64,000 nt of DNA. Origin: Trifolium pratense (taxonomy: Eukaryota > Streptophyta > Magnoliopsida > Fabales > Fabaceae). The DNA lies in contig NC_060060.1 of NCBI RefSeq assembly GCF_020283565.1, positions 2,852,001 to 2,916,000 of the forward strand. The letters run 5' to 3'. The translations under genes and the position numbers were made by a program. Positions 32,112 to 53,192 of the stretch are shown in pieces; within the stretch, counting starts at the first letter, position 1, and each line of letters starts with the position of its first letter. The notes below the pieces were generated by a model. It saw nothing but the letters and a program-made list of their open reading frames with translations. It was not told the DNA's origin and did no database searches.

Positions 32112-32363
32112 GATGTTTTCTCTTTAGGCCCTCATGGTTCTTTTCCCCTTTGAAATTTACTTTTTTGCCCTTCAATAAAAACTTCGGTCACTACGAACCG
32201 AATTTTTTTTGCCTTGAAAAAAAAATTGGTTTCTGTTAACCGAATTTTCCCTGACTTTGAACTAGAAAAAACTTCAGTTTCTGCGAACCGAAGTTTTTAG
32301 CAAGAGCAAAATTGGAATATTTGGGGTATAAAAGATACATGGGAGGCCTAGAGAGAAAACATT
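32112..32363. mobile_element. Small MULE derivative related to the 12-kb element
   Basis: 252 bp. The left end (GATGTTTTCTCTTTAGGCC) and the right end in reverse complement (AATGTTTTCTCTCTAGGCC) are inverted copies and resemble the composite element's GAAGTTTTCTCTCCCGACC; both then run into CTTTTATACCCC/CTTTTCCCC, TTTTGCCC/TTTTGCTC and AAAAACTTCGG blocks. The interior holds three palindromes of the TTCGGT..ACCGAA kind (near 32191, 32230 and 32275). No clear target duplication was found, so the outer limits are approximate. It contains no gene. Confidence 0.7.
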
Positions 32364-38714: not shown

Positions 38715-38723
38715 CTAGATGAA

Positions 38724-38770
38724 GAAGTTTTCTCTCCCGACCCCCCCCATTTCTTTTATACCCCCCGAAA
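38724..38770 (+). repeat. Left terminal inverted repeat of the composite MULE
   Basis: Pairs with 50781-50827. The first 23 bases are identical to the reverse complement of the right end, after which scattered differences appear in the C-run and the AAATCCC stretch. Confidence 0.9.
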
Positions 38771-38815
38771 ATCCCATTTTGCCCTTTGCGGTATAAAAAA
38801 ATTTTGTCAAGAGAC

Positions 38816-39218
38816 TTCGGTTTTTACGAACCGCAGGCCATGGACTTCGGTTTTTACGAACCGCAGGCCATGGACTTCGGTTTATATAAACCACTCGCTG
38901 AATTACTTCGGTTAATGTTAACCGAAGTGTTTCTATATATAAATACTCTGCTGTCAGTTCTTATTATTCACAAAACGAGAATTTGAAAATCTTACGGAAA
39001 GAAGATCAACTTTTGACGCATTTGAGGCTTGAAATCGAGATTGAAGCATCATCTAATGGATTCAACACGCACCAAAGCACAAAACTCAGGTAACCACCGA
39101 TTTAAATTCGTTTTTTCTTGCTATCATAGACTCTGTTCTCGCAAGGTTTCTGACAGTATTCCTTCGGGGAATATAAACCGAAGTCAGGTTATGTGACCTT
39201 CGGTTTATACGAACCGAA
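38816..39218. repeat. Palindrome cluster A (6 units)
   Basis: Six 20-nt imperfect palindromes starting at 38816, 38846, 38876, 38907, 39163 and 39199. Each has a TTCGG arm and a CCG-type arm around an 8-nt spacer. The first two are exact 30-bp tandem copies including the GGCCATGGAC linker. The last two lie in intron 1 of the transposase gene, the others upstream of its TATA-like box, so none is coding. Confidence 0.88.
38933..38945 (+). promoter_or_regulatory. TATA-like box of the transposase gene
   Basis: TATATATAAATA lies about 110 bases before the predicted start codon at 39056 and directly after palindrome unit 4, a spacing compatible with a core promoter. Inferred from sequence only. 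Confidence 0.5.
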
Positions 39219-39794
39219 ATGTTGATCCTCTGCGTTAGGCTTAGGCTTGGCTTGACTTGACTTTATATTGACTTATAAACTGTACTTCATATTGACTTGG
39301 CTTTATTTTGGCTTCATATTGACTTCATAGTGTCCTATGTGTTTAATTAGTGTTGTAATAGGATTGTAAATATTATGTGTGGTTGATTGATTGTTTTTTC
39401 ATTTGCGTATGCTGTAGTTACGGAAGGCGAAATTAACGAAGTTGTCGAAGTTAGGCGACCTGTTGTGCTTGGCCTTTTTGCAACGGGCATTGTTCCAGCT
39501 GGTCAACCAAGAAGTCCTCCTAATGTGCCGCAGCCGATAGAAATTGACACATCGTCTCATTTTGCGACTGATAGGGAAGAGAACGACAGAGATGAGTTGA
39601 TCAAATGGGCTCGAAGCGTGTCGCAAAGTTTAAGGTTCGCAATTATAGTTAGGCGATCCGATTCGGGCGAGAAGAGAAAGGCTCAATTGGTGTTAGAGTG
39701 TGAACGTAGTGGGAAGTATGTTCCAGCCAAGAAGAAGTTGAAATCCGATACCTCCGGAACAAGAAAATGCGAATGTCCTTTCATACTGTGCTGA
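39056..39794 (+). pseudogene. N-terminal part of the MULE transposase gene, interrupted
   Basis: Predicted exon 1 39056-39089 (MDSTRTKAQNS) joins by a GT..AG intron to 39418. Exon 2 reads through EGEINEVVEVRRP to RFAIIVRRSDSGEKRKAQLV and TRKCECPF, the start of a FAR1/MULE-type zinc DNA-binding domain. The frame then stops at 39792. In related transposases that domain continues with a His-containing half and a linker of roughly 100-150 residues before the catalytic core; here the core begins almost at once in another frame (39779). So a deletion with frameshift removed the domain's second half. The join point is read directly; the missing length is inferred from family knowledge. Confidence 0.75.
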
Positions 39795-41957
39795 TGATGG
39801 ACTCCACATACAAAACCAGCAAGTACAAAATGCCGCTGTTTGAAATAGTCGGATACACTTCGACCGAGAAGACATTCAACGTTGCTTTTGCCTGGCTCAG
39901 TAACGAAAAGGAAGACAACTTTATATGGGCTCTGCAACAACTACGTTGTTTGTTAAGGCGTGAGACAAATTTGCCGAAGGTTATCTTGACGGATCGAGAT
40001 TTAGCTTTGATGAATGCTATTCCGGCTGTGTTTCCAGAAGCGGCGGCGTTGGTTTGTCGGTTCCATGTTAAGAAGAATGTGAGGACCAAGGCAGCCGAGC
40101 TGGTCAAGGTGAGGGATGGGGAAAAGGTCAAGGCGGCGGACATGAGGGAAAGAGTCTGTTTGGCGTTCGAGGATGTGTTAGATTCGTCTACTGAGGCTGA
40201 GTATACTGAAAATGTTATGGCTTTTAGGAAGTTATGTGAGAGGTGGCCAAAATTTGTTCGGTACGTTGAAGAGACAATTTTGGACACCGACAAAGAGAAG
40301 CTCGTGAGTGCATGGGTGGACAAGTATATGCACATGGGCAACAATACGACAAATAGAGCTGAAAGCGCACACGGTGTTTTGAAAAGTTACTTGACCGACG
40401 GTCTCGGTGATTTGGTGAAGGGTTGGGAATCGATTCACAGAATGTTAGGCAATCAATTCACCCAAGTGCAAACTGAATTTGGCCAGAACATGTCTGTGTA
40501 TGGACACACATACCGGAAGAAAACACTTTACTCGACTTTGATGTTTAAAGTCTCTAGACGTGCAATGAGATACATCCACACTGAATCAAAAAGAGTCGAG
40601 TTTACTGGTATGGATAGCATGAAGTGTGGTTGTCTGATGAGGACTAACTACGGGCTGCCATGTGCGTGTTTGATTGCCAAGAAACTGCACCACAATAGGC
40701 CTATTAGACTCGATGAGGTTTACAAACATTGGAAGATAATTTGTTTCCAAGATGAAGAAGTTGGTGGCGACGTCGAGGACGATTATGCGTGCACGGCAGA
40801 GTGGCAAGCAATTCAGGTGCGTGTTTATTAAAGGCATAATACACTTATTTTACGATTTTACGATCATTATGCGTTGGTTTTTAATTTTTAATGGCATATT
40901 TTTTTTTTTTTGTTTGTTTTAGGAACGATTGAGGACAGCTGATGTAAGCATGAAAAATGAGATCCGAGATCAACTCCGCAAGATTGCGTATCCTACAACC
41001 ACCGATGTGGAGCCTCCGACCACAAATGTAAAATCAAAAGGGGCTAAAAAGAAAAAGGTGGTCCGTGGAACAAGATCCACCAGCAGAGATAAGTCTCGAT
41101 GGGAGCATGTTGAAGAATATTTCACGGAGACACAAGCGTCGCAATCGTCAAAGCCGTCTCCGTCAATTCCGTCCCACTCAAGGCCATCATCATCACAACC
41201 TACCGCATCAAACCCTATGCCTACGGTGTCTGAAGCTCCGCTCACTGTGTCCAACCCATTGCCACTAACCTCATCATCTAAAATTTTTGGAATTAACCAC
41301 ATGCCAAAATTCATGCATCCCTTCATTGAAGATATCATCAACGTGGACGGCGACGGCTATTGTGGTTACCGTGCCGTTGCATTGGCTCAGAGAGGCAACG
41401 AAGATGATTTTGAACTGATACGGTGCAACATGAGCAGGGAGTTGCGATTGAATAAGGATATGTATGTTGCTATATTTGGTTGCGAGGAGCGTTACCAATA
41501 TATCTGTGATGCACTACTCCCACCCCCGAGGACGAGACAACGTACTAGTATTAGGAATAGTGTTGCACCGATGGATAAATGGTTCACGTTGCCGGATATG
41601 GGACATATCGTGGCCACCATATTGGATAGAGTAGTTGTTCAGCTCTCCATACTTCAAAATGGGCCTTGTGAAACTTTTTTCCCATTGCGTTCCATTCCGT
41701 CACCAAACCCGTCTTCAAGGGTTATTTGCCTTGGCGCGTTACCGGATCACTATGTTTTGGTAAAGCTTAAAGTTGGGTGTCCGATACCCAAATCAAACAA
41801 GTCGTGGAAGCAATATTGTGCTAAACAAAGTTTGGGTTGGGAAGATTCATTCATAGCTGCGCAACATAGGTTCGAGGAGATGATGAGCACCGAGAACGTT
41901 GTCCCCATCCAAATAGTTGGTGCAGGCAGTAGAGAAACTCCGTTGGTGATTGACTGA
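39767..41957 (+). CDS. MULE transposase catalytic domain fused to an OTU-type cysteine protease domain
   Basis: Exons 39767-40816 and 40923-41957 (CAG/GTGCGT donor, TTTTAG acceptor), an open frame of 694 residues counted from the first in-frame ATG; the true start is lost with the upstream deletion. Residues 1-270: MULE transposase core with likely catalytic acids D12 (MDSTYKT), D76 (LTDRD) and E199 (TNRAES). Around 285-310: a CGC..GLPCAC SWIM-like zinc motif. A basic Ser/Pro-rich linker (KSKGAKKKKVVRGTR) follows. From about 475: an OTU-like domain with GDGYCGYRA (nucleophile C497) and PDHYVLV (H626), the residues expected of a deubiquitinase-type cysteine protease. Transposases bind and cut element ends; the OTU part may process ubiquitin or a ubiquitin-like protein (inference). 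Its neighbours are two small MULE-derived genes downstream. Confidence 0.87.
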
Positions 41958-42271
41958 TCATTTGGCCTATTTTAATGTATTTTACGTTGTTATATATTTT
42001 GATGTAAAGAACATCCATTTTGTAATGATATGAATCGAGATGTAATGACATCCATTTTGTAATGAAATATATTGAAGTGATTTGGTGTTGTGTAATTGTT
42101 TGTGTCAATATAATGATATTGGTTGAAGTAATCTTGATGTTGTGTAATTGTATGAATAATTTTTCCAATATGAATGTGTCTGGATGAACAGCATTAACAG
42201 TGGATTTCGCGTGGATGTCATTCCATGGAAGGTCGTGAGTTACAATATCATTGGTTGTCATGAAAATATAT

Positions 42272-42553
42272 TTCGGTAACTATGTACCGGAATTTACCCA
42301 GATTTCGGTAAATATCTGCCGAACCAGCCTATTTCCAGTGAACAACCGAAATTTTCGGTAGATTGGTACCGAAGTATGCTGTTATTTCGGCAAATAGGTA
42401 CCGAACTATAATTTCGGTACACATCTGCCGAATCCTACATATTCCAGTGAACCACTGAAATTTTCGGTAGCTTGGTACCGAAATAAGGGGGTATGACAGT
42501 CAACTTCGGTGAATATTAACCGAACTCATAAACTTCGGGGAATGCGAACCGAA
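42272..42553. repeat. Palindrome cluster B (8 units, inverted order)
   Basis: Eight TTCGG..CCGAA-type palindromes between the transposase stop and the next gene. The linker CCAGTGAAC appears here in the opposite direction to the GTTCACTGG of clusters C and D, so this cluster is inverted relative to them. Confidence 0.88.
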
Positions 42554-42845
42554 ATGTGTTTAAATTTACAACTGTTTACTGGGGGGTATAAAAGAAAACT
42601 GGGGGGTAGAAAAGATGTAAGCATATGCCTGAAAACTTGTTAAAAATCATATAAATAACTTAATCGATACGAACCCGTCAAATAATTTATATTTGAGATT
42701 ACACCGACACTTTTTGTGGTTGAGATTGGACCGACAATTTTTATTTTTATTTAATTTTTTTTTTTTGTGGTCAAGATTACACCGACATTTAGTTGTGGTT
42801 AAAATTACACCGACGAAATTATGTGGCCGTAATTAGATTGAATGT

Positions 42846-42854
42846 AGTATAAAA
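42846..42854 (+). promoter_or_regulatory. TATA-like box before the first small gene
   Basis: AGTATAAAA sits about 55 bases upstream of the ATG at 42904, placing a plausible transcription start some 25 bases before it. Confidence 0.5.
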
Positions 42855-42903
42855 CCGCCGTATGTGTATAGTTGTGAAAAACACGTTTGAACAATTTCAC
42901 AAA

Positions 42904-43275
42904 ATGAGTGCTTCAAATCGGTCTGTTAATAACAATAGGGCGACATCTCATGCATTTTCAGTTAAGTTTCGCGGTAACAACGAGTTGTTCTGCGTTGACC
43001 TGTCGAACAATTTGACGACTATTCAAGCTCTTAAACGCCAGATCGAAGTCATGTATCGCTTCAAATACGGCAGACAAATCAAAATAGAAAAAATTGCGTA
43101 TTACGAATCGACAATCGATCTGGCCAGTGATAATGTCGGTGGATATGATGAGCAACCCCGAAAATACGAGTGGAAGGAGTTGAAAAATGATGACGATGTG
43201 AACGACATGTTCAATGGGGTAGAAGTTGATCCGAAGTATCCACGTTTGTATGCTACCTTAGTAGTTACAAACTGA
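42904..43275 (+). CDS. Small MULE-borne protein 1 (transposase N-terminal-domain-like)
   Basis: Single exon, 123 residues from the ATG at 42904 (MSASNRSVNNN). It opens with a beta-strand-like FSVKFRGNNELFCVDL, has a basic middle (FKYGRQIKIEKIAYY) and ends with KNDDDVNDMFNGVEV..RLYATLVVTN. The final acidic DDDV-x2-MF block followed by a hydrophobic strand resembles the poorly characterised PB1-like N-terminal segment of many plant MULE transposases. It shares this block with its neighbour at 43600-43992, so the two are probably old paralogues. A TATA-like box lies upstream. Function unknown; a role as a separate transposase subunit is speculation. Confidence 0.7.
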   Translation: MSASNRSVNNNRATSHAFSVKFRGNNELFCVDLSNNLTTIQALKRQIEVMYRFKYGRQIKIEKIAYYESTIDLASDNVGGYDEQPRKYEWKELKNDDDVNDMFNGVEVDPKYPRLYATLVVTN

Positions 43276-43599
43276 AATTTGGTTACTCATGTTGTTGAAT
43301 TCTCAGTTATGTTGTCGTTGCATTTTCGTTTACGTTATCGCTTATTTTTCAGTTATGTTGATGTGACCTTTTAATTAATGAATGCTTTTATGTTGCACGT
43401 TTTTTATGCTCCATCTAAATTTTCTAAACGCTCGCCAAACGAATCAACACCCACCTACCGCATTTAAGCCCACCTAACTCCGCTAACTACCAATCCACCT
43501 CATTAACGCTCACCTACCGCCATAATGTGCACCAAACCCATCTTTAAATTCACGTGTTTTGTTGAATTCAACACTCGACAGAAAAAAAATAACGGGAAA

Positions 43600-43992
43600 A
43601 TGGATGTCTCACTCACACAACGAATGAGATCTACTCTTGCGGCAGTTTACTTCGGCGATGGAAAACCGCATTTGTTTCGAATCAATGACGGTGAAACGTT
43701 CGAAGGTCTGAAACAGCAGCTGTACCAACTGAATCGCACCGTCAACAACCCGAACGACAATAGAACGGTATCAAATCTCCTGTATCGAAAGCCATCAATT
43801 GGTTCTGACGGACGCGTTGCTTTCACTCGTATGGCTGTTGAAAACAACGATGATGTTGAAACTATGTTTTCAATCTTCGAGCAGTACTCCTCCACGGGAC
43901 CTATCGAGCTAGATGCGACACTGACAAGATCAGTTGAAGCCATCCTTGCTTGTCTTGTTGGGCCGGAAGACCCAAATAGGCAAACTAAGTGA
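43600..43992 (+). CDS. Small MULE-borne protein 2 (paralogue of protein 1)
   Basis: Single exon, 130 residues from the ATG at 43600 (MDVSLTQRMRS). The frame stays open back to an ATG at 43525 (155 residues), but the inner start aligns better with protein 1. It has LAAVYFGDGKPHLFRINDGETFEGLKQQ split by text here as two strands and a helix-like run, then ENNDDVETMFSIFEQYSS and PIELDATLTRS, the same acidic-MF-hydrophobic plan as protein 1. Cluster C palindromes begin about 120 bases after its stop, and the next gene converges on it. No enzyme motif is seen; function unknown. Confidence 0.7.
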   Translation: MDVSLTQRMRSTLAAVYFGDGKPHLFRINDGETFEGLKQQLYQLNRTVNNPNDNRTVSNLLYRKPSIGSDGRVAFTRMAVENNDDVETMFSIFEQYSSTGPIELDATLTRSVEAILACLVGPEDPNRQTK

Positions 43993-44115
43993 TGCGACCG
44001 TGTTGTTATCGTTTTGTTTTTTAATTTGCCTAAGTGTGTTTTCCTTTTCATCTTTGTTGTGATTTTTAGTTTGCCTAAGTGTGTTTCATTTTCTTGAAGT
44101 TATAATTAATACTAT

Positions 44116-44326
44116 TTCGGTAAAAGCTTACCAAAGTTTTCCCAGATTTCGGTATTTAGGTACCGGAATTTTGACTCGGTCACTGGAAATAGGTAATTTC
44201 GGCAAAACTTTACCGAACTAGTAATTTCGGTAACTGCAACCCGAATATTACCCAGATTTCGGTAATATCCTCCCGAATTTTTGTCTGGCTCACTGTTTTA
44301 GTATGTTTCGGCAAAGTTTTACCGAA
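44116..44326. repeat. Palindrome cluster C (6 units)
   Basis: Six palindromes between the convergent 3' ends of small gene 2 and PMD gene 1. CCCAGATTTCGGTA recurs here as in cluster D, and TCACTGGAAATAGG marks the same orientation as D. Several arms carry single mismatches, so this cluster is somewhat eroded. Confidence 0.85.
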
Positions 44327-44599
44327 ATATATCTTTTCCCAACAAATGACTTTAAACTATGTATCACCCGTGGGATCATATCCACGCGAAATCACCTGTT
44401 CGGATATAATCGTATTTCAAATGAAATTCATACATTCCAATCCAAATCCAATAAAAAAACAAATTAAATGGAAACCGCATTCAATATAAATCCATGTTCA
44501 TACATCCCAAGCAAAACGAAATTATACGGACAAGTTGTTCCATTGTACACGGCAGGATTTAAAAAAAAATAAAACATAGCGAAAACAAAAAATAAAAAA

Positions 44600-46816
44600 C
44601 TACAAGCTGCTTGTTCCGGCATCTTCAGTTGTTGTCTTCTTCTTCTTCTTCCTCTTCTTTGTTCCTTCACCCGAGTCTCTTTTCCTCTTCCGTCGCACCA
44701 AATATGCATCTACAGGCTCCAAATCAGTGTAGGCTTTTTCAATAACCACCAAAGCATCGGCCAAATTGAGTTGACCATCGAGCGCTTTCCTCAAATCCGC
44801 TCGAACCTTCTTAGTCACTTCAGACACGTCGCATTCACCACTCACGTTGTCCTCCTCAAGGTTAGCATGTGTTGGTGGATCCGCTTCAACCGGTGGCAAT
44901 ATCTTCGGATGAGAAACACGGTATAACCATGGAATGTATCCGGGTACGGTATCAAATGCACGCACAACTTTTGGTCCTCGCATCTCCTCTGTCACATAGT
45001 TGGCAGTCAGGTAGGAAGCAAATGCATCAGCAATCGTAAACCGATTCATACCAGCCTTTGCAGATACATCAGGGTGCCTAGGGATAGACTGGACATGTCC
45101 AAATTGTCGGAGGACACGTTCTGGCAAGTGTGGATTGATAATAGCACTTCCACACATAATCCAACCAGTGTACCAACTGATATCTTGAAAGGGTCTGGTT
45201 TGCCGGTGCTCCTCATATGGGCAAAACACCACTTCATCCATGCGCATTGTATCCAATGCGGACCTATGCTGCCCTGGAAATTTTGGTCCTTTTAAAGGCA
45301 AAAATCTTGCCGCATAGGGATTGTCGTGGGTGTATCTCTCATCAACAAAACGTCCACCAAAAGTTTTGAAATGCGCCATAATCCAGGCCTATTGAAAACA
45401 CATGATATGGGTAAGCAAAATATTTAATTATAACAACCGACATTCAGTTAAAAGGCAAAACGCATTTTGAGTTTGTATGTATACCTGAAATAGACAGTTA
45501 TAACCACCATGATTTCCACATCTCGGGCGGCTTGCAGCATCCAAGTAGTTGTACAGATATGCCAGCCCAGAAGCACCCCAATTCCACGTGTTAACTAAAC
45601 TGAGGTCTCGCAAGTAGGTAAGAAAAATGACGTCCACGTACTGCATACTTTTGTTGGTGAAAATGGTTGCACCGATCAAGTAGAGCAAATAGCATCTAAT
45701 GGTGCATTCCCTGAGGAATTCCACATCTTCAGCAGGCTTCTTTAACCTTTCAGCTTTCAAGGCATCCTTCAAATTATCGAGATACAAATCCTTCAACGCC
45801 TTAAACCCTATATGTGCTCCTTTCATTTTTTGAAACTCTTTCTTGCACTTACTAATAGGGAAGTTCAGATACTCTACGCACATCTCTTCACCATCTTCCT
45901 TTGTACATGACGTTCCGTTGTGGTCGAGCATTTTTCCGGTAATCGGAATATGAAGCAATGAGGACACGTCGTCCAAGGTTATAGTCATCTCACCAATAGG
46001 AAGATGGAAAGTTCCGGTCTCAGGATGCCATCGCTCTGCAAATGCCGTCAACAGACCCCAATCGGTGTGATTGTAATTTGTCCGCCGCAGAGTTTCGAGT
46101 CCGGACGCATTAACGACATTCCAAAACCACGAGTACTCTTTCGGACATATCTTGAAATTGTTGATTTTTTTCCCGTTGTTCATTACCCTCAAATACCGGG
46201 ATTGGAGCTGCAAAACATTACACTTCATTACACTTCATAACAATCGACATCGAAAATAAATAGTGTTATATGAATCGTAACTTACCTCTCCTTTCCACAA
46301 CGGTACAGCAACATGTTTTCCAAATCCCGGCAACAAAGACAAGTCAGACGGACCACCATCATAACATGTAACTGGTGGTGGTTTAACTCGTGGTGGGTTC
46401 CTTCCTTGTGTTACTCGTGTAACCTTTTTCCGTGGTTTTTTAGGTTCTGGTGGTGGTTGTTCAGCCTCCTCTTCCTCCTCCATTTCCTCTTCCGCTTCCT
46501 CATCAACTTCTTCTTCCCCATCATCATCCCCCTCTTCATCCGCTTCCTCATCCGCTTCCTCCGCTTCCTCATCCACTCCTTCCTCCCCTTCCTCCCCTTC
46601 CTCTTCCCCTTCTTCAGAAATATTTTCTTCCACGTCTTCATTCTCCTCTTGCGATTCTGCATCCTCCGGTCGAGGCTCATCCATCGTGGTTGAAACTGCT
46701 TTCCCTTTAGCTCGACTTGGAATTTTATCTACATTGACCGCAGCCTGTCTACGTGCAGAGCTATGTGCTTTGCTTGCACCGCCACGTCTTGTTCGGCCAA
46801 CTTTGTCGTCCGTCAT
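44600..46816 (-). CDS. Plant mobile domain (PMD) protein 1
   Basis: Exons 46816-46286, 46207-45485, 45388-44600, all phase-0 introns, 2043 nt, 680 residues. The ATG at 46816 (MTDDKVGRTRRGG) is chosen because the frame upstream runs into non-coding leader. N-terminus: a basic RRGGASKAHSSARRQ segment, then a Glu-rich acidic tract (about 50-110) and a Pro/Lys stretch. Exons 2-3 carry the PMD (aminotransferase-like, PF10536) hallmarks: WFWNVVNASGLETL, LLTAFAERWHPETGTFHLP, GEMTITLDDVSSLLHIPI, WNWGASGLAYLY, LPERVLRQFGHVQSIPR. The C-terminus is Lys-rich (KKRKKKKKTTT), a probable nuclear signal. PMD proteins occur in plant transposons and in host MAIN/MAIL genes that silence transposons. Function inside the element is unknown. 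Confidence 0.88.
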
Positions 46817-47312
46817 GATTCCTACAAGAAAACAGTCACCATAAGTATCTACGAAATCAATATTCATCGGTTACTCATTCAAACAATTTTTATACATAAA
46901 TCAATACTCATACAAGCATTTTGTCAAACACTTGGTGCACATAAACAAGAATACAAATCCAATTCATATGCCCTAAAATAAATTACCCTATACAAGTCCA
47001 ATCATATACCCTAAATTAAAATACAACCCCAAATTTAGTGGAATCAAAACAATAATCACGAGCATTAACAAATCAAAATAAAAAAATTAAAAAAAAAGCA
47101 AGAAAATGAGAGTTGAGTTTGAAAACTTACTTGTAGAGATGAGCTTGGTGATTATCAGGGAGAAATTGAATGTTTAGAAGAGAGAAATTGTCGTTCTACT
47201 GGTGAAACCTTAAATTTGCGATTGAAACCTCCAAAATCGCCCTAGCCTCTGTTGCAAACCGTTTTGGCGGAAATGGTGAACGTTTAAAGTTTTTCCTAAT
47301 ATATTAGTTAAT

Positions 47313-47692
47313 TTCGGTACATGCGAACCGAACTATAGCGTTTTCGGCGTTTGTGTACCGAATATCACCCAGATTTCGGTAATTAGCCCCCGGAATTTTC
47401 ATTGGTTCACTGGACAGGACGTATTCGGCATAAATATACCGAAAGTGATTTCGGTTACCAGGTACCGAAATTTACCCAGATATCGGTACGTGGATACCGA
47501 AATTTTGTTTCGTTCACTGGAATATGATCTATTCGGCAGAAATTTACCGAAATGTATATTCGGTTATCAGGTACCGAAAGTTACCCATATATCGGTGCCT
47601 GGATACCGAAATTTTCTTTGGTTCACTGGAATTAGGTCGTTTCGGCATATATCTACCGAAATGTACCCAGATTTCGGTAACTGGATACCGAA
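47313..47692. repeat. Palindrome cluster D (11 units, ~108-bp higher-order repeat)
   Basis: Units start at 47313, 47343, 47375, 47424, 47450, 47482, 47532, 47559, 47591, 47641 and 47673. The spacing pattern 26-27, 32, 49-50 repeats, so the array is a three-palindrome cassette with a period of 107-109 bp (47424/47532/47641; 47375/47482/47591). Each cassette carries GGTTCACTGGA before a TTCGGC-headed unit and ACCCAGAT or ACCCATAT before the third. It lies between PMD gene 1 (its upstream side) and the 3' end of PMD gene 2. Confidence 0.92.
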
Positions 47693-47933
47693 ATGAATTG
47701 CATAATTTTCTTTTTTTTTTTTTTTTGGGTCTTGCACGTTTATGTAACATCATAAACTATCATAACATAGCTGAGTATTAAACACATCACGTTAACGGAA
47801 ATTTAAAAAAGGTAACGGGTAATTAAACGTAGTCAAATACACCAAATTGTTTGAATCAGACTACATCCAAATTCGACAAATTCAAATAATAAAATTACAT
47901 TAAACAACAACTGAGTTACAATATTAGCTAAGC

Positions 47934-50084
47934 CTACTCTCGAGTGTTGTACCGTCTCCCTCTACCCCGCTTAAGTCGCCGACACGTCAAAACAGGGTTA
48001 AGCAAATTCAAAATCCTCCGCAAAGTACCATGAACAGGAGTTCCTTCCACCGCCTCACCTTCGCGAAGTGACCTCTCCACCTCATCCCTAACACCACGGC
48101 ATACCTGAAGCATGTTAGGGTCATTCCTTGCTTCCGCGGCCTCTATCAACACCTCTAAGTTAGGTGGCCTTGGTGGTGACACCGGAGCTTGTACGGGTCG
48201 CATAACTGGATGCGACACTTTGTAAAACCATGTCATGTATCCAGGTTCATGGTCCCATGCGCTAACCACAGCCTGACCCCTCATCTCTTCAGCAATCATC
48301 CTCAAATCCAACTCCTCCATAAAAACACGATCAATCTCACATAGGCTCATCCCCGGAGTCGCAGACAAATCCGGTTTTCTAGGAATGCCTTGGACATGTT
48401 TAAATTGTCTAAGCACGCGTTCAGGCAAATGCTTTGCTTTCAAATTACCACATCTCAACCATCCAGAAAACCAGCATGAATTTATCAAAGGGCGGACGTG
48501 TCGGTGATCATCATATGGACTGAATACGCAGTCATACGTCTGAATATTATCCAAACTGTTTCTATAGCTACTTGGTTCCCTATGTCCAGCTCCGGGAACA
48601 AACTTTGCATTTCGAGGCATGCCCTCAGAATAGATAGGATCCTGCGCCCACACGCTAAGTCCCGGAAAATGAGAAATTATCCAGCCCTGAAAGCATGACA
48701 AACAAGTTTCATTATATTGACGGACGTTACGTATCATACATGTTGAATAATTTTCGTAAGCGCACGTTTATGTTACCTGAAGCAAAGACATGTACCCAGC
48801 CATCTGATTCACTGTCACCAAACACGCATCATCCAGATAATGTTGCAAATGAACCAGAGCAGCAGCACCCCAATTCCATTCACGGACAGCCGACAAATCC
48901 TGAAAATACTGCAGGTATACTACGTCCACGTAGTAACTGCTTTTGTTGCTAAATATGGTACAACAGACCAAAAATAGCAAGAAAGCCCGTATGGACCTGT
49001 CCCTATACAGCTTAATCTCATGCGCCGACTTACCTTCAGCAACAGCTTTATCAGCTAATCCGTGGTTAACACTATAGATATCCTCCACGTCAGAATGCTT
49101 CAGATGGAGCCCGTTCATTTTGGCAAAATGACCCATAACAACATTCCGATCAACTCCTAGAAATGAATTAACCATGTCAGCCGCTTCATCCCTTGACATT
49201 TTGCCATGGTTCAGAAACTTTCCCTCGATCGGAATATGCAACAGACACTGGACATCGTCCAATGTGATGGCCAGCTCACCCAATGGAATGTGGAATGAAC
49301 TCGTCTCCGTATGCCATCTTTCAACAAATGCCCAGAGGAGCCCGTAGTCAAGCACGCTAAAATTAGTCCGGGTAAGCGGCTCCAAACCCGATGCTTCAAC
49401 CACATCCCAAAACCATCTGTCCGTGCGGCGCGACGGTTTTTGTATATTAATAACTTTTTTTCCGCTGGCGATGCAACGTAAATTTACCGCTAAAATCTGA
49501 AAAATTCAAATAACACAAAAAATTATCGAGCTAACGTAATCACAACATTTTTAATAAAATAATCGTCGTATTTTAAATTGGTTTACCTCTTTGTCATTTG
49601 GGTCTGCATACCATATCGGAATAGCCATATGCTTATCGTACTCCGTTAACAAGGACAAATCCGTCGGTCCTCCTCCAAAACCTACTTCATCATCATTACG
49701 TGAACACTTTGGTGGTTTTCGGCGTACTGGTTTGCGCCGTTGTTGTCGAGGTGGTTGTTGCGGTGGGTCTTGCGGTTCATCTTGCGGTGAGTGTTGCGGT
49801 GAGACTTGTGGTGAGACTTGTGGTGATCCAAGATCATCATAATCAAAACACGCATTTAAAAATTGGTCGGCATCAAATTCATCTTGCACCACCAATGATT
49901 GTCCTAGACGTGTCCGTCCACGTGTATGCGACCCACCCGCCTCGGCATCATGTGTACCTTGCCCCGGAGTTGGTCCTTTGCGACGACCTCGTTTGGACGG
50001 ATGATTTGCAGCAAGCTCTCTACGAGCGGAAGCATGTGCATTGATTGCCTTTCCATGCCTACCCCTAGGTAGATTTTCTTCCAT
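47934..50084 (-). CDS. Plant mobile domain (PMD) protein 2
   Basis: Exons 50084-49587, 49496-48777, 48686-47934, phase-0 introns, 1971 nt, 656 residues. Intron positions and exon sizes parallel PMD gene 1, so the pair arose by duplication. The N-terminus shares the basic start (GRHGKAINAHASARRE), then diverges: instead of the Glu tract it has a Pro/Gln run (SPQVSPQVSPQHSPQDEP) and KPVRRKPPK. PMD hallmarks: WFWDVVEASGLEPL, LLWAFVERWHTETSSFHIP, GELAITLDDVQCLLHIPI, EWNWGAAALVHLQHYLDD, LPERVLRQFKHVQGIPRKP. It ends in a basic CRRLKRGRGRRYN tail. The frame is intact with no stops, which suggests recent constraint or recent insertion. Function unknown. Confidence 0.88.
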
Positions 50085-50599
50085 ATCTATACATAGATAA
50101 ATAAATTCACAGTCAATACAATACTTATAATTCAATCGAACACATGATTCTTGCAACAATGGAAACATAATTCAAATGGAAACATGCATTCATATTCACT
50201 CGTACATTTTGACAAACACTTAGAGTACACTATAACTCAATTAGCTTCATATTCACATTTAACTCAATTAGCAACATTCATTCATGCTAGTATGTAACCA
50301 ATCTAACAACTAACCAATAATCAACGATTCAAACAACATAATCAACAATTTAACTCAATAATCAGATATTGAAATTTTGGAATTTTTATACGGAAGAACA
50401 AAAAATGAATTTGAAATGTCATGGTCATGAGGAATGCATAGAATGACAAATAAAGGAAAGAAACTTACTTGATGAAATGTGATTTGAAGTTGGATGTTGA
50501 AGTTGGCCGCAAATGTGTAGAAGAAAGGAAGAGAGGAGTTTTGTGGTTTGTTTTTCAAAATAAAACGAACTTACTGAAATTGTTCATATGTAAGACAAC

Positions 50600-50755
50600 T
50601 TCGGTTAATATTAACCGAATCAACCCTTCGGTTAATATCCACCGAAGCAACCCTACATTCGGTTCGTGGATACCGAACGATGCCAACACCACGTTCGGTT
50701 CGCAGTTACCGAAATGTTTCAAGATGTCAAAAGACTTCGGTTTTTATAAACCGCA
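50600..50755. repeat. Palindrome cluster E (5 units)
   Basis: Five palindromes between the PMD gene 2 leader and the right TIR. The outermost (TTCGGTTTTTATAAACCGCA, 50736-50755) mirrors the outermost unit of cluster A, so the element is symmetrical beyond its TIRs. Confidence 0.88.
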
Positions 50756-50780
50756 GTACCCCCCAAGGGTAAAAACGGAA

Positions 50781-50827
50781 ATTCAGGGGGTATAAAAGAA
50801 ATGAGGGGGGTCGGGAGAGAAAACTTC
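50781..50827 (-). repeat. Right terminal inverted repeat of the composite MULE
   Basis: Pairs with 38724-38770 and is followed directly by the CTAGATGAA target copy. Confidence 0.9.
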
Positions 50828-50836
50828 CTAGATGAA

Positions 50837-51800: not shown

Positions 51801-53192
51801 ATGGCACAACAAGAAGAACAATTCAATGTTGTTGAAGTTTGCAATGTTGAACCATTTCATGAACCAACAAAACCTTCTCAGTCACCAACCTCACTTCCAC
51901 TAACTTTCTTTGATCTTCTATGGCTAAGATTTCCACCAGTTGAACGTCTCTTCTTCTATGAATTCACAAACTCAACCAATTTTTTTTATGAAACTTTTCT
52001 TCCAAATCTCAAACACTCACTTTCACTCACACTTCAACACTTTCTCCCTTTCGCCGGAAACATAGTTTGGCCTATTGGTTCATCGAAACCAATCATAAAC
52101 TATGTTCCCGGTGATTTTGTTTCCTTCACGGTTGTTGAATCAAACTCAAGTTTCAAAGATCTTTCTTCTAATCATTGTGAAGCTTCAAAAAGACATCATT
52201 TGATACCCCTTTTGAAAACTTCACATGAAAAAGCTTCTTTGGTTTCGTTTCAAGTCACTTTGTTTCCAAACAATGGTTTTTGCATTGGAATAACAACACA
52301 TCATGCTGGTTTTGATGGAAAATCTTCAACAAATTTCATGAAATCATGGTCCTATATTACATCTTCTATTTCTAACCTTGATTCATCTTTTTTATCTTTA
52401 CCTGAAAATCTAACACCTTTTTTTGATAGATCATTGATACAAGATCATAATAATGGAATTGGAATCAGTGAAGCATATGTTATTGATATTATGAAACAAG
52501 GTGGACCAAACAATAAAAGTGTCAAGGTTATAGATTTTCCTAGTACATTGAAAAATGATGCAATTAAAAGCTTCTTTGAATTAACACCTTCAAATATTCA
52601 AAAGCTTAAGCAACATGCAAAAAATGAGATGAAGATGAATGTTACTAATTTGTCAACATTTTCAGTTACATGTGCTTATGTGTTATCATGTTTAGCAAAA
52701 GCAGAAAAACCAAAGGATGAAAAAGTGATTTTAATATTTGCTGTTGATTGTAGAACAAGATTGGACCCTCCAATTTCTTCTATGTATATTGGAAATTGTA
52801 TTGCAGGACAAAAGGTTAAGCTTGAGCCAAAGAAATTAGTTGAAAAAGATGGATTTTTAAGTGCTTTAGAAGGGATGAGTGAAGGTTTGAATAAGGTGAA
52901 AAATGATGGAGTGTTGAATGGAGCTGAAAACTGGTTAAGTCATATGGTAAATGCTAATGAGAGTATTAAAATATATTCTATTGCTGGATCACCAAGGTTT
53001 GAAGTTTATAGTATTGATTTTGGATTTGGAAAGCCTAAAAAAGTGGATACTACTTCAACTGATAAAACAGGAGCATTTTCTATTAGTGAAACTAGGAATA
53101 ATGATGGTGGAGTTGAGATTGGTTTGGCTTTAAACAAGCAAGAGATGGAAACTTTTTCTACCCTTTTTGTTCAAGGACTTGAATGCATTTAA
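51801..53192 (+). CDS. BAHD acyltransferase, (iso)flavonoid glucoside malonyltransferase type
   Basis: Single exon, 463 residues, the normal BAHD length. BAHD enzymes move acyl groups from CoA thioesters to hydroxyls or amines in the cytosol. The catalytic HxxxD is HHAGFDG (H168, D172). The structural DFGWG motif reads DFGFG (406-410, VYSIDFGFGKPKKV), the YxxDFGxGxPxK context of the clade that malonylates anthocyanin and isoflavone glucosides. The N-terminal LPLTFFDLLWLRFPPVERLFFYEF, HSLSLTLQHFLPFAGNIVWP and MYIGNCIAG segments also match this clade. Substrate cannot be decided from sequence; legume relatives use malonyl-CoA and isoflavone glucosides. A tandem copy lies at 55437. A hAT MITE sits about 450 bases downstream. 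Confidence 0.92.
   Translation: MAQQEEQFNVVEVCNVEPFHEPTKPSQSPTSLPLTFFDLLWLRFPPVERLFFYEFTNSTNFFYETFLPNLKHSLSLTLQHFLPFAGNIVWPIGSSKPIINYVPGDFVSFTVVESNSSFKDLSSNHCEASKRHHLIPLLKTSHEKASLVSFQVTLFPNNGFCIGITTHHAGFDGKSSTNFMKSWSYITSSISNLDSSFLSLPENLTPFFDRSLIQDHNNGIGISEAYVIDIMKQGGPNNKSVKVIDFPSTLKNDAIKSFFELTPSNIQKLKQHAKNEMKMNVTNLSTFSVTCAYVLSCLAKAEKPKDEKVILIFAVDCRTRLDPPISSMYIGNCIAGQKVKLEPKKLVEKDGFLSALEGMSEGLNKVKNDGVLNGAENWLSHMVNANESIKIYSIAGSPRFEVYSIDFGFGKPKKVDTTSTDKTGAFSISETRNNDGGVEIGLALNKQEMETFSTLFVQGLECI

Follow-up and report, generated by a model that had tools for sequence, protein, structure and literature searches.

Thirty-six rigid 20-nt palindromes in a clover MULE with two plant mobile domain genes: candidate landing sites of a VANC-like anti-silencing system

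The subject of this report is a Mutator-like element (MULE) of 12,104 bp that spans positions 38724-50827 of a 64,000-nucleotide (nt) stretch of Trifolium pratense contig NC_060060.1, here called the window, in which all coordinates are given. The non-coding DNA of this element carries 36 copies of a 20-nt palindrome, and on balance we favour the view that these are the sites of a dimeric protein encoded by the element itself. The most likely binders are the products of its two plant mobile domain (PMD) genes, PMD1 and/or PMD2, acting in a sequence-specific anti-silencing system of the kind known from the VANC proteins of Arabidopsis. Judging from modelled proteins, a self-activating system probably uses the palindromes as its landing sites. 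The element is classed as a MULE by its terminal inverted repeats (TIRs), a target-site duplication (TSD) of ~9 bp, and the MULE transposase domain PF10551.

The palindromes and their arrays

The initial annotation of this DNA had described 36 units of exactly 20 nt, of the form TTCGGT-N8-ACCGAA, in clusters A to E of 6, 8, 6, 11, and 5, and all of them were found as follows (cluster A is listed in two parts).

38816..38926, no strand: cluster A, first four palindromes (38816, 38846, 38876, 38907), by scan
39163..39218, no strand: cluster A, two palindromes (39163, 39199) in intron 1 of the transposase gene, by scan and gene model
42272..42553, no strand: cluster B, eight palindromes, the first six an inverted D-type composite repeat, by scan and self-comparison
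44116..44326, no strand: cluster C, six palindromes between the 3' ends of open reading frame (ORF) 2 and PMD1, by scan
47313..47692, no strand: cluster D, eleven palindromes in a ~109-bp tandem repeat, upstream of PMD1 and downstream of PMD2, by scan and TRF
50600..50755, no strand: cluster E, five palindromes upstream of PMD2, the last ending 72 bp inside the right end, by scan

Over the 12 arm positions, 13 of the 36 units are exact, 21 have one mismatch, one has two, and one (38876) has three. A scan of the element returned 13, 34, and 36 sites at <=0, <=1, and <=2 mismatches, the last set leaving out 38876 and taking in a look-alike at 43651, compared to means of 0, 0.05, and 0.66 in 200 first-order Markov simulations of the element. 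Allowing <=3 mismatches dilutes the signal (41 sites inside the element and 24 outside, with a simulated mean of 5.8). Outside the element, only three sites lie within two mismatches, all of them in a small MULE at 32.1-32.4 kb of the window, and the ~51.6 kb of other flanking DNA has none.

The geometry of the units is rigid. With one mismatch allowed per arm, there are 35 matches at N8 (34 of the 36 units plus the look-alike) but no more than one at any other spacer length between 2 and 16, and the pattern TTCGG-Nn-CCGAA, with n from 0 to 35, occurs at n=10 only, 26 times. The spacers are nevertheless variable in sequence, as had been claimed, with 35 of 36 distinct. The proposed arms, TTCGGT and ACCGAA, hold in their cores but not throughout: positions 2-5 (TCGG) and 16-17 (CC) are invariant in 36/36 and position 18 is the same in 34/36, while position 6 is T in 27/36, C in 7/36, and G in 2/36. 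The palindromes contain 36 TCGG and 28 CCGA tetramers; outside them, the element's twelve non-coding intervals hold 13 of the two together. Each arm carries a CpG in 34 of the 36 units, and because this type of site is eroded by methylation, the conservation of the arms is worthy of note.

Two claims about where the units lie had to be amended. They had been placed in every non-coding interval, but by the gene models they occupy six of twelve, the empty ones measuring 78-249 bp. The statement that they never fall in coding exons is true for the 36, but the look-alike, at 43651-43670 and with 2 mismatches, is in the predicted coding ORF 43525-43992; ~0.7 such matches are expected by chance.

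One composite of ~109 bp, with three palindromes at steps of ~32, 50, and 27 bp, recurs in diverged form in clusters B (where it is inverted), C, and D, so the 36 units do not represent 36 independent events. As read from the spacings, no expected position in this 32/50/27-bp order is empty in C and most of D; a fused step occurs at the end of D (47692) and at the start of B (42272), and the first D site (47313) stands outside the order. The terminal clusters A and E, as well as the end of B, are of a different kind with flanks of their own, and a BLAST self-comparison (E<=0.001) found no block joining the two kinds of array beyond the palindromes. In six aligned composite units, mean identity is 92% in the arms, 47% in the spacers, and 64% in the linkers; invariant columns number 30/36, 4/24, and 15/42, respectively (Fisher P 2.7e-5 for arms vs linkers). 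A test for helical phasing of neighboring sites at 10.5 bp was not significant (R 0.40, P 0.23, distinct distances). A dense short motif in non-coding DNA, amplified as tandem repeats, is what VANC-type systems have too. The composite holds a further conserved block: TCACTG stands between the second and third palindrome in 6/6 aligned units (47343-47660, 44116-44326, 42304-42405) and is possibly the site of another factor.

The PMD proteins as candidate binders

PF10536, the PMD domain, is found in the exons of two minus-strand genes between the TIRs.

44600..46816, minus strand: PMD1 gene, 680 aa, intact ORF, coding exons 46816-46286, 46207-45485, and 45388-44600, equal to database protein P0001
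47934..50084, minus strand: PMD2 gene, 656 aa, intact ORF, coding exons 50084-49587, 49496-48777, and 48686-47934

Both have GT-AG introns, their own start and stop, and no internal stop. They stand alone on the strand opposite to the transposase gene and are not fused to it. In its spliced form, the PMD1 model shows 100% identity over 680 aa with P0001, a Trifolium pratense protein named “MAIN-LIKE 1-like isoform X2” that belongs to a cluster of 52 member sequences. A tree of 74 proteins (the database copy of PMD1 included) together with PMD2 places PMD1 and PMD2 apart, in Trifolium-only clades of 8 and 15 sequences, with support of 1.0 each; P0057, which is unlabelled in the tree, is from T. 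repens. The first coding exons contain tandem repeats, acidic in PMD1 (46467-46616) and Pro/Gln-rich in PMD2 (49750-49826), and the variable regions of VANCs are likewise reported to have tandem repeats.

The link to a DNA-bound anti-silencer comes from structure prediction. The predicted models of PMD1 and of P0023, a homologue 67% identical to PMD2, match the DNA-bound structure of VANC21 (9lnj). VANC21 is an Arabidopsis MULE protein that binds the DNA of its own element and undoes silencing (PMC5735166, PMC10398659). The initial annotation had named the transposase or the PMD proteins as possible binders. The models speak for the PMD proteins, which are favored because of this match and because the DNA-binding region of the transposase is broken in this copy.

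We infer that PMD binds the 20-mers, dimerizes, and counters silencing. A PMD homo- or heterodimer would recognize the TCGG/CCGA half-sites at their fixed distance, and with arrays lying densely in promoters, in the first intron, and in further non-coding DNA, PMD would be loaded onto copies of this family only. Bound PMD would locally counter DNA methylation and silencing, so that the genes of the element, PMD's own included, stay expressible, and defective copies and small non-autonomous relatives with palindromes could profit in trans. The MAIN/MAIL1 heterodimers that have been proposed (PMC5418596) suggest by analogy that the partners may be PMD1 and PMD2.

A number of observations weigh against this proposal. 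The link between PMD1 and VANC21 is one of predicted folds at 8-9% identity, with modest Foldseek TM-scores (0.53 and 0.45 by target length, 0.30 and 0.28 by query length), and the fold evidence for PMD2 comes from the model of homologue P0023, not from the PMD2 of the window. DUF1985, a domain of the VANCs, had no match in P0001 or P0023 even at E<=10, and the PMD profile found no VANC among PDB sequences. Matches to DUF1985 were seen in 27 of the 74 PMD proteins at E<=0.1 (best 4.2e-6, P0028), the strongest scores being 27.2 bits (P0028) and 28.0 bits (P0047), both below the Pfam cut-off of 35.1. The VANC21 motif is 9 bp long, non-palindromic, and in one orientation (PMC5735166), whereas the clover site is a rigid 20-bp dyad. 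The proposal is also based on one full-size copy of the element and on a small number of aligned units (six), whose arm conservation is favored because the units were recognized by their palindromes. CpG observed/expected is 0.96 in the other non-coding DNA of the element and 0.91 in its coding DNA, compared to 0.71 in the left flank and 0.51 in the right, but the element's youth alone could explain this.

A broader proposal, which we hold as tentative and put at a little under even chances, is that PMDs and VANCs are one superfamily of sequence-specific DNA-binding chromatin regulators, with the host silencing factors MAIN and MAIL1 in the same superfamily and with clover MULEs that use PMD anti-silencing with a palindromic address. 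If so, host PMD proteins would act by direct recognition of a DNA motif, sequence-specific anti-silencing by MULEs would reach beyond the DUF1985 VANCs, and one DNA-binding fold would serve both silencing by the host and anti-silencing by a transposon. In the literature, the mode of action of PMD proteins is called largely unclear, and their domain is described as having no determined function. One 12-kb element now offers two intact PMD frames, a predicted VANC21-like fold, and 36 candidate targets, so that recognition of DNA by PMD is testable with one oligonucleotide.

Other explanations of the palindromes

The palindromes could act as hairpins in RNA or DNA, for example, as sources of small RNA or triggers of silencing. 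Their arms are able to pair, and there is an excess of pairing over shuffles at positions 7/14 (23 vs 15.9, P 0.007) and 9/12 (17 vs 11.1, P 0.013), with a slight symmetry of the distinct spacers (1.83 inner pairs vs 1.48, P 0.008). However, a dimer site also permits such inner symmetry, positions 8/13 and 10/11 show no excess over shuffles, and changes at 6/15 are uncompensated: A15 is kept in 7/7 units with C6, and pairing there (22/36) is below that in shuffles (23.8). Because of these uncompensated changes and the fixed loop length, the hairpin was rejected as highly improbable, and the units are better read as rigid dyad sites for a protein dimer. The initial annotation had offered either a dyad protein-binding site or a hairpin; the former is well supported at the level of sequence by the fixed N8, the invariant half-site cores, and the greater conservation of arms than linkers. 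The same comparison of arms and linkers bears on the idea that tandem duplication produced the arrays as a neutral by-product and that the palindromes have no function. Clusters B, C, and D are indeed one composite repeat, and TRF reports arrays of 109 and 30 bp, but the arms outconserve the linkers and spacers of the same six aligned units, and the two types of array share no BLAST block beyond the palindromes. This idea was therefore also rejected and has very little chance of being right.

Of the proteins that might bind such a dyad, the transposase of the element is one that has to be considered, with its FAR1/AFT-type N-terminal domain binding the palindromes to pair or excise the ends. 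Its gene and a small relative of the element that bears on this are as follows.

39056..41957, plus strand: MULE transposase gene with C-terminal extension (PF10551), exon 1 39056-39089, exon 2 39418-40815, exon 3 40923-41957
32113..32362, no strand: small decayed MULE-like element, TIR 56/77, palindromes at 32183, 32225, and 32273

Sites are found 92 bp in from the left end of the large element and 72 bp in from its right end, and they adjoin the TIRs of the small one, which has little besides its ends and palindromes. In P0121 and P0147, both relatives of the transposase, the match to AFT is above the cut-off and that to FAR1 below it. Against this, 25 of the 36 sites are in the internal arrays B, C, and D and two more in the intron, where the pairing of ends needs none, and this copy has lost part of the domain and its frame while the sites are intact, although these could still serve a transposase in trans. 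We consider a transposase site unlikely. A host transcription factor, for which the palindromes would be upstream sites activating the element's genes, is no more probable than that. It is true that the transposase, ORF1, PMD1, and PMD2 each have a cluster upstream of their coding start (A, B, D, and E, respectively, with two A units in the first intron), and that a TATA-like stretch begins at 38934, 8 bp past the last of the first four cluster A palindromes. However, cluster C lies between convergent gene ends, the flanks have no close site outside the small element, and 36 copies at one exact spacing are denser than in usual promoters.

The damage to the transposase lies in exon 2, where the frame breaks near 39788 with an internal deletion (region 39731-39818). 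For P0121, the alignment of residues 11-106 is in frame 3 and runs to 39788, while that of residues 228-592 is in frame 2 and begins at 39731; the alignment of P0147 is split in the same way, into residues 12-132 and 237-398. Since the AFT/FAR1-type region (the matches in P0147 extend to residues 156-157) is partly deleted and the frame is broken, a full transposase is not expected from this copy. The PF10551 part (E 1.6e-28) lies downstream of the break. The transposase is thus broken in its FAR1/AFT-type DNA-binding region, whereas both PMD reading frames are intact. Intron 1 (39090-39417) carries the two palindromes of cluster A, and the junction of exons 1 and 2 is identical in P0147, itself an annotation; the junction of exons 2 and 3, with continuation into 40923-41957, was placed by reading of the splice sites. 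This C-terminal extension contains the stretch DGDGYCGYRAV, which is reminiscent of the OTU cysteine proteases; Pfam gave no match to it, and the C-terminal exon found nothing useful among PDB sequences or in Pfam.

Known systems and further features

Among the closest known systems are VANDAL21 and VANDAL6, MULEs of Arabidopsis with VANC21 and VANC6 (Hosaka 2017, PMC5735166; Sasaki 2023, PMC10398659). There, the VANDAL protein is a DUF1985/DUF287 VANC, the TIRs are degenerate, and the VANC21 targets are one-way arrays. The clover element, in contrast, encodes PMD (PF10536) proteins from two paralogous genes, its sites are dyads with array B inverted relative to D, its TIRs are clear (63 bp at 89%), and its host is clover rather than Arabidopsis. 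The element is not filed as a VANDAL, since it was examined for a Pfam match to DUF1985, for degenerate TIRs, and for one-way motifs and showed none of the three, yet it probably works like one. Its ends are as follows.

38715..38723, no strand: left copy of the TSD CTAGATGAA, adjoining the TIR, letters checked
38724..38786, plus strand: left TIR, 56/63 identical to the reverse complement of the right TIR
50765..50827, minus strand: right TIR, by inverted-repeat comparison
50828..50836, no strand: right copy of the TSD CTAGATGAA, letters checked

The 9-bp TSD is perfect on both flanks, so the insertion is recent enough for it to have survived unchanged. Diversification of VANCs in eudicots is reportedly the subject of a 2022 paper by Sasaki in EMBO J.

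A PMD carried by a MULE is a feature shared with the elements of Ikeda 2017 (PMC5418596), which are reported from several grasses and from Amborella. There, PMD-C is fused to the MULE transposase, and the authors speculate that the captured protein has an anti-silencing role. In clover, a eudicot, PMD is instead encoded by two stand-alone genes, and a candidate target is visible. Eudicots contain mainly genic PMD-C (Nicolau 2020, PMC7156037). The Arabidopsis MAIN/MAIL1/PP7L group includes PMD proteins whose loss lowers genes sharing a promoter motif (PMC7156037, PMC9899485), and it has been hypothesized that the complex recognizes this motif, directly or not (Nicolau 2020, PMC7156037). These are host genes that promote silencing, and their “DOWN” motif (CATGCAGTTT in the MORC1 promoter) differs from the palindrome; a match between the two was rejected by eye. 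A literature search found no paper combining Trifolium pratense and the plant mobile domain.

Repeated motifs are also known from the subterminal repeats of CACTA elements, and in one of these, soybean Tgmt* (PMC2613891), they can form stem-loops. In En/Spm, the element-encoded TNPA binds DNA at repeated motifs, as proposed here for the clover PMD, and TnpA has been linked to demethylation (PMC10398659). The CACTA motifs, however, are described in subterminal regions and belong to a superfamily other than MULE. The ends of the clover element begin GAAGTTTTCTC and its TSD is 9 bp, as opposed to CACTA termini and a TSD of 3 bp.

From its sequence, the small element at 32113-32362 looks like a decayed non-autonomous MULE. 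Compared with the ends of the large element, its own show 70 and 75% identity (E 8e-4 and 3e-3). A CpG has been lost from an arm in two of the three units, and no clear TSD was seen by eye. A scan of viral contigs for paired palindromes returned 0.

Two small ORFs lie between the transposase and PMD1 genes, and neither has a Pfam match.

42904..43275, plus strand: small ORF1, 123 aa, with one relative in a protein search, 98% identical, from Trifolium pratense
43525..43992, plus strand: small ORF2, 155 aa, containing the coding look-alike 43651-43670 (2 mismatches)

A comparison of ORF1 to PDB sequences gave nothing useful. About 1 kb to the right of the insertion is a long ORF, 51801-53192, which we take to resemble a BAHD-type acyltransferase.

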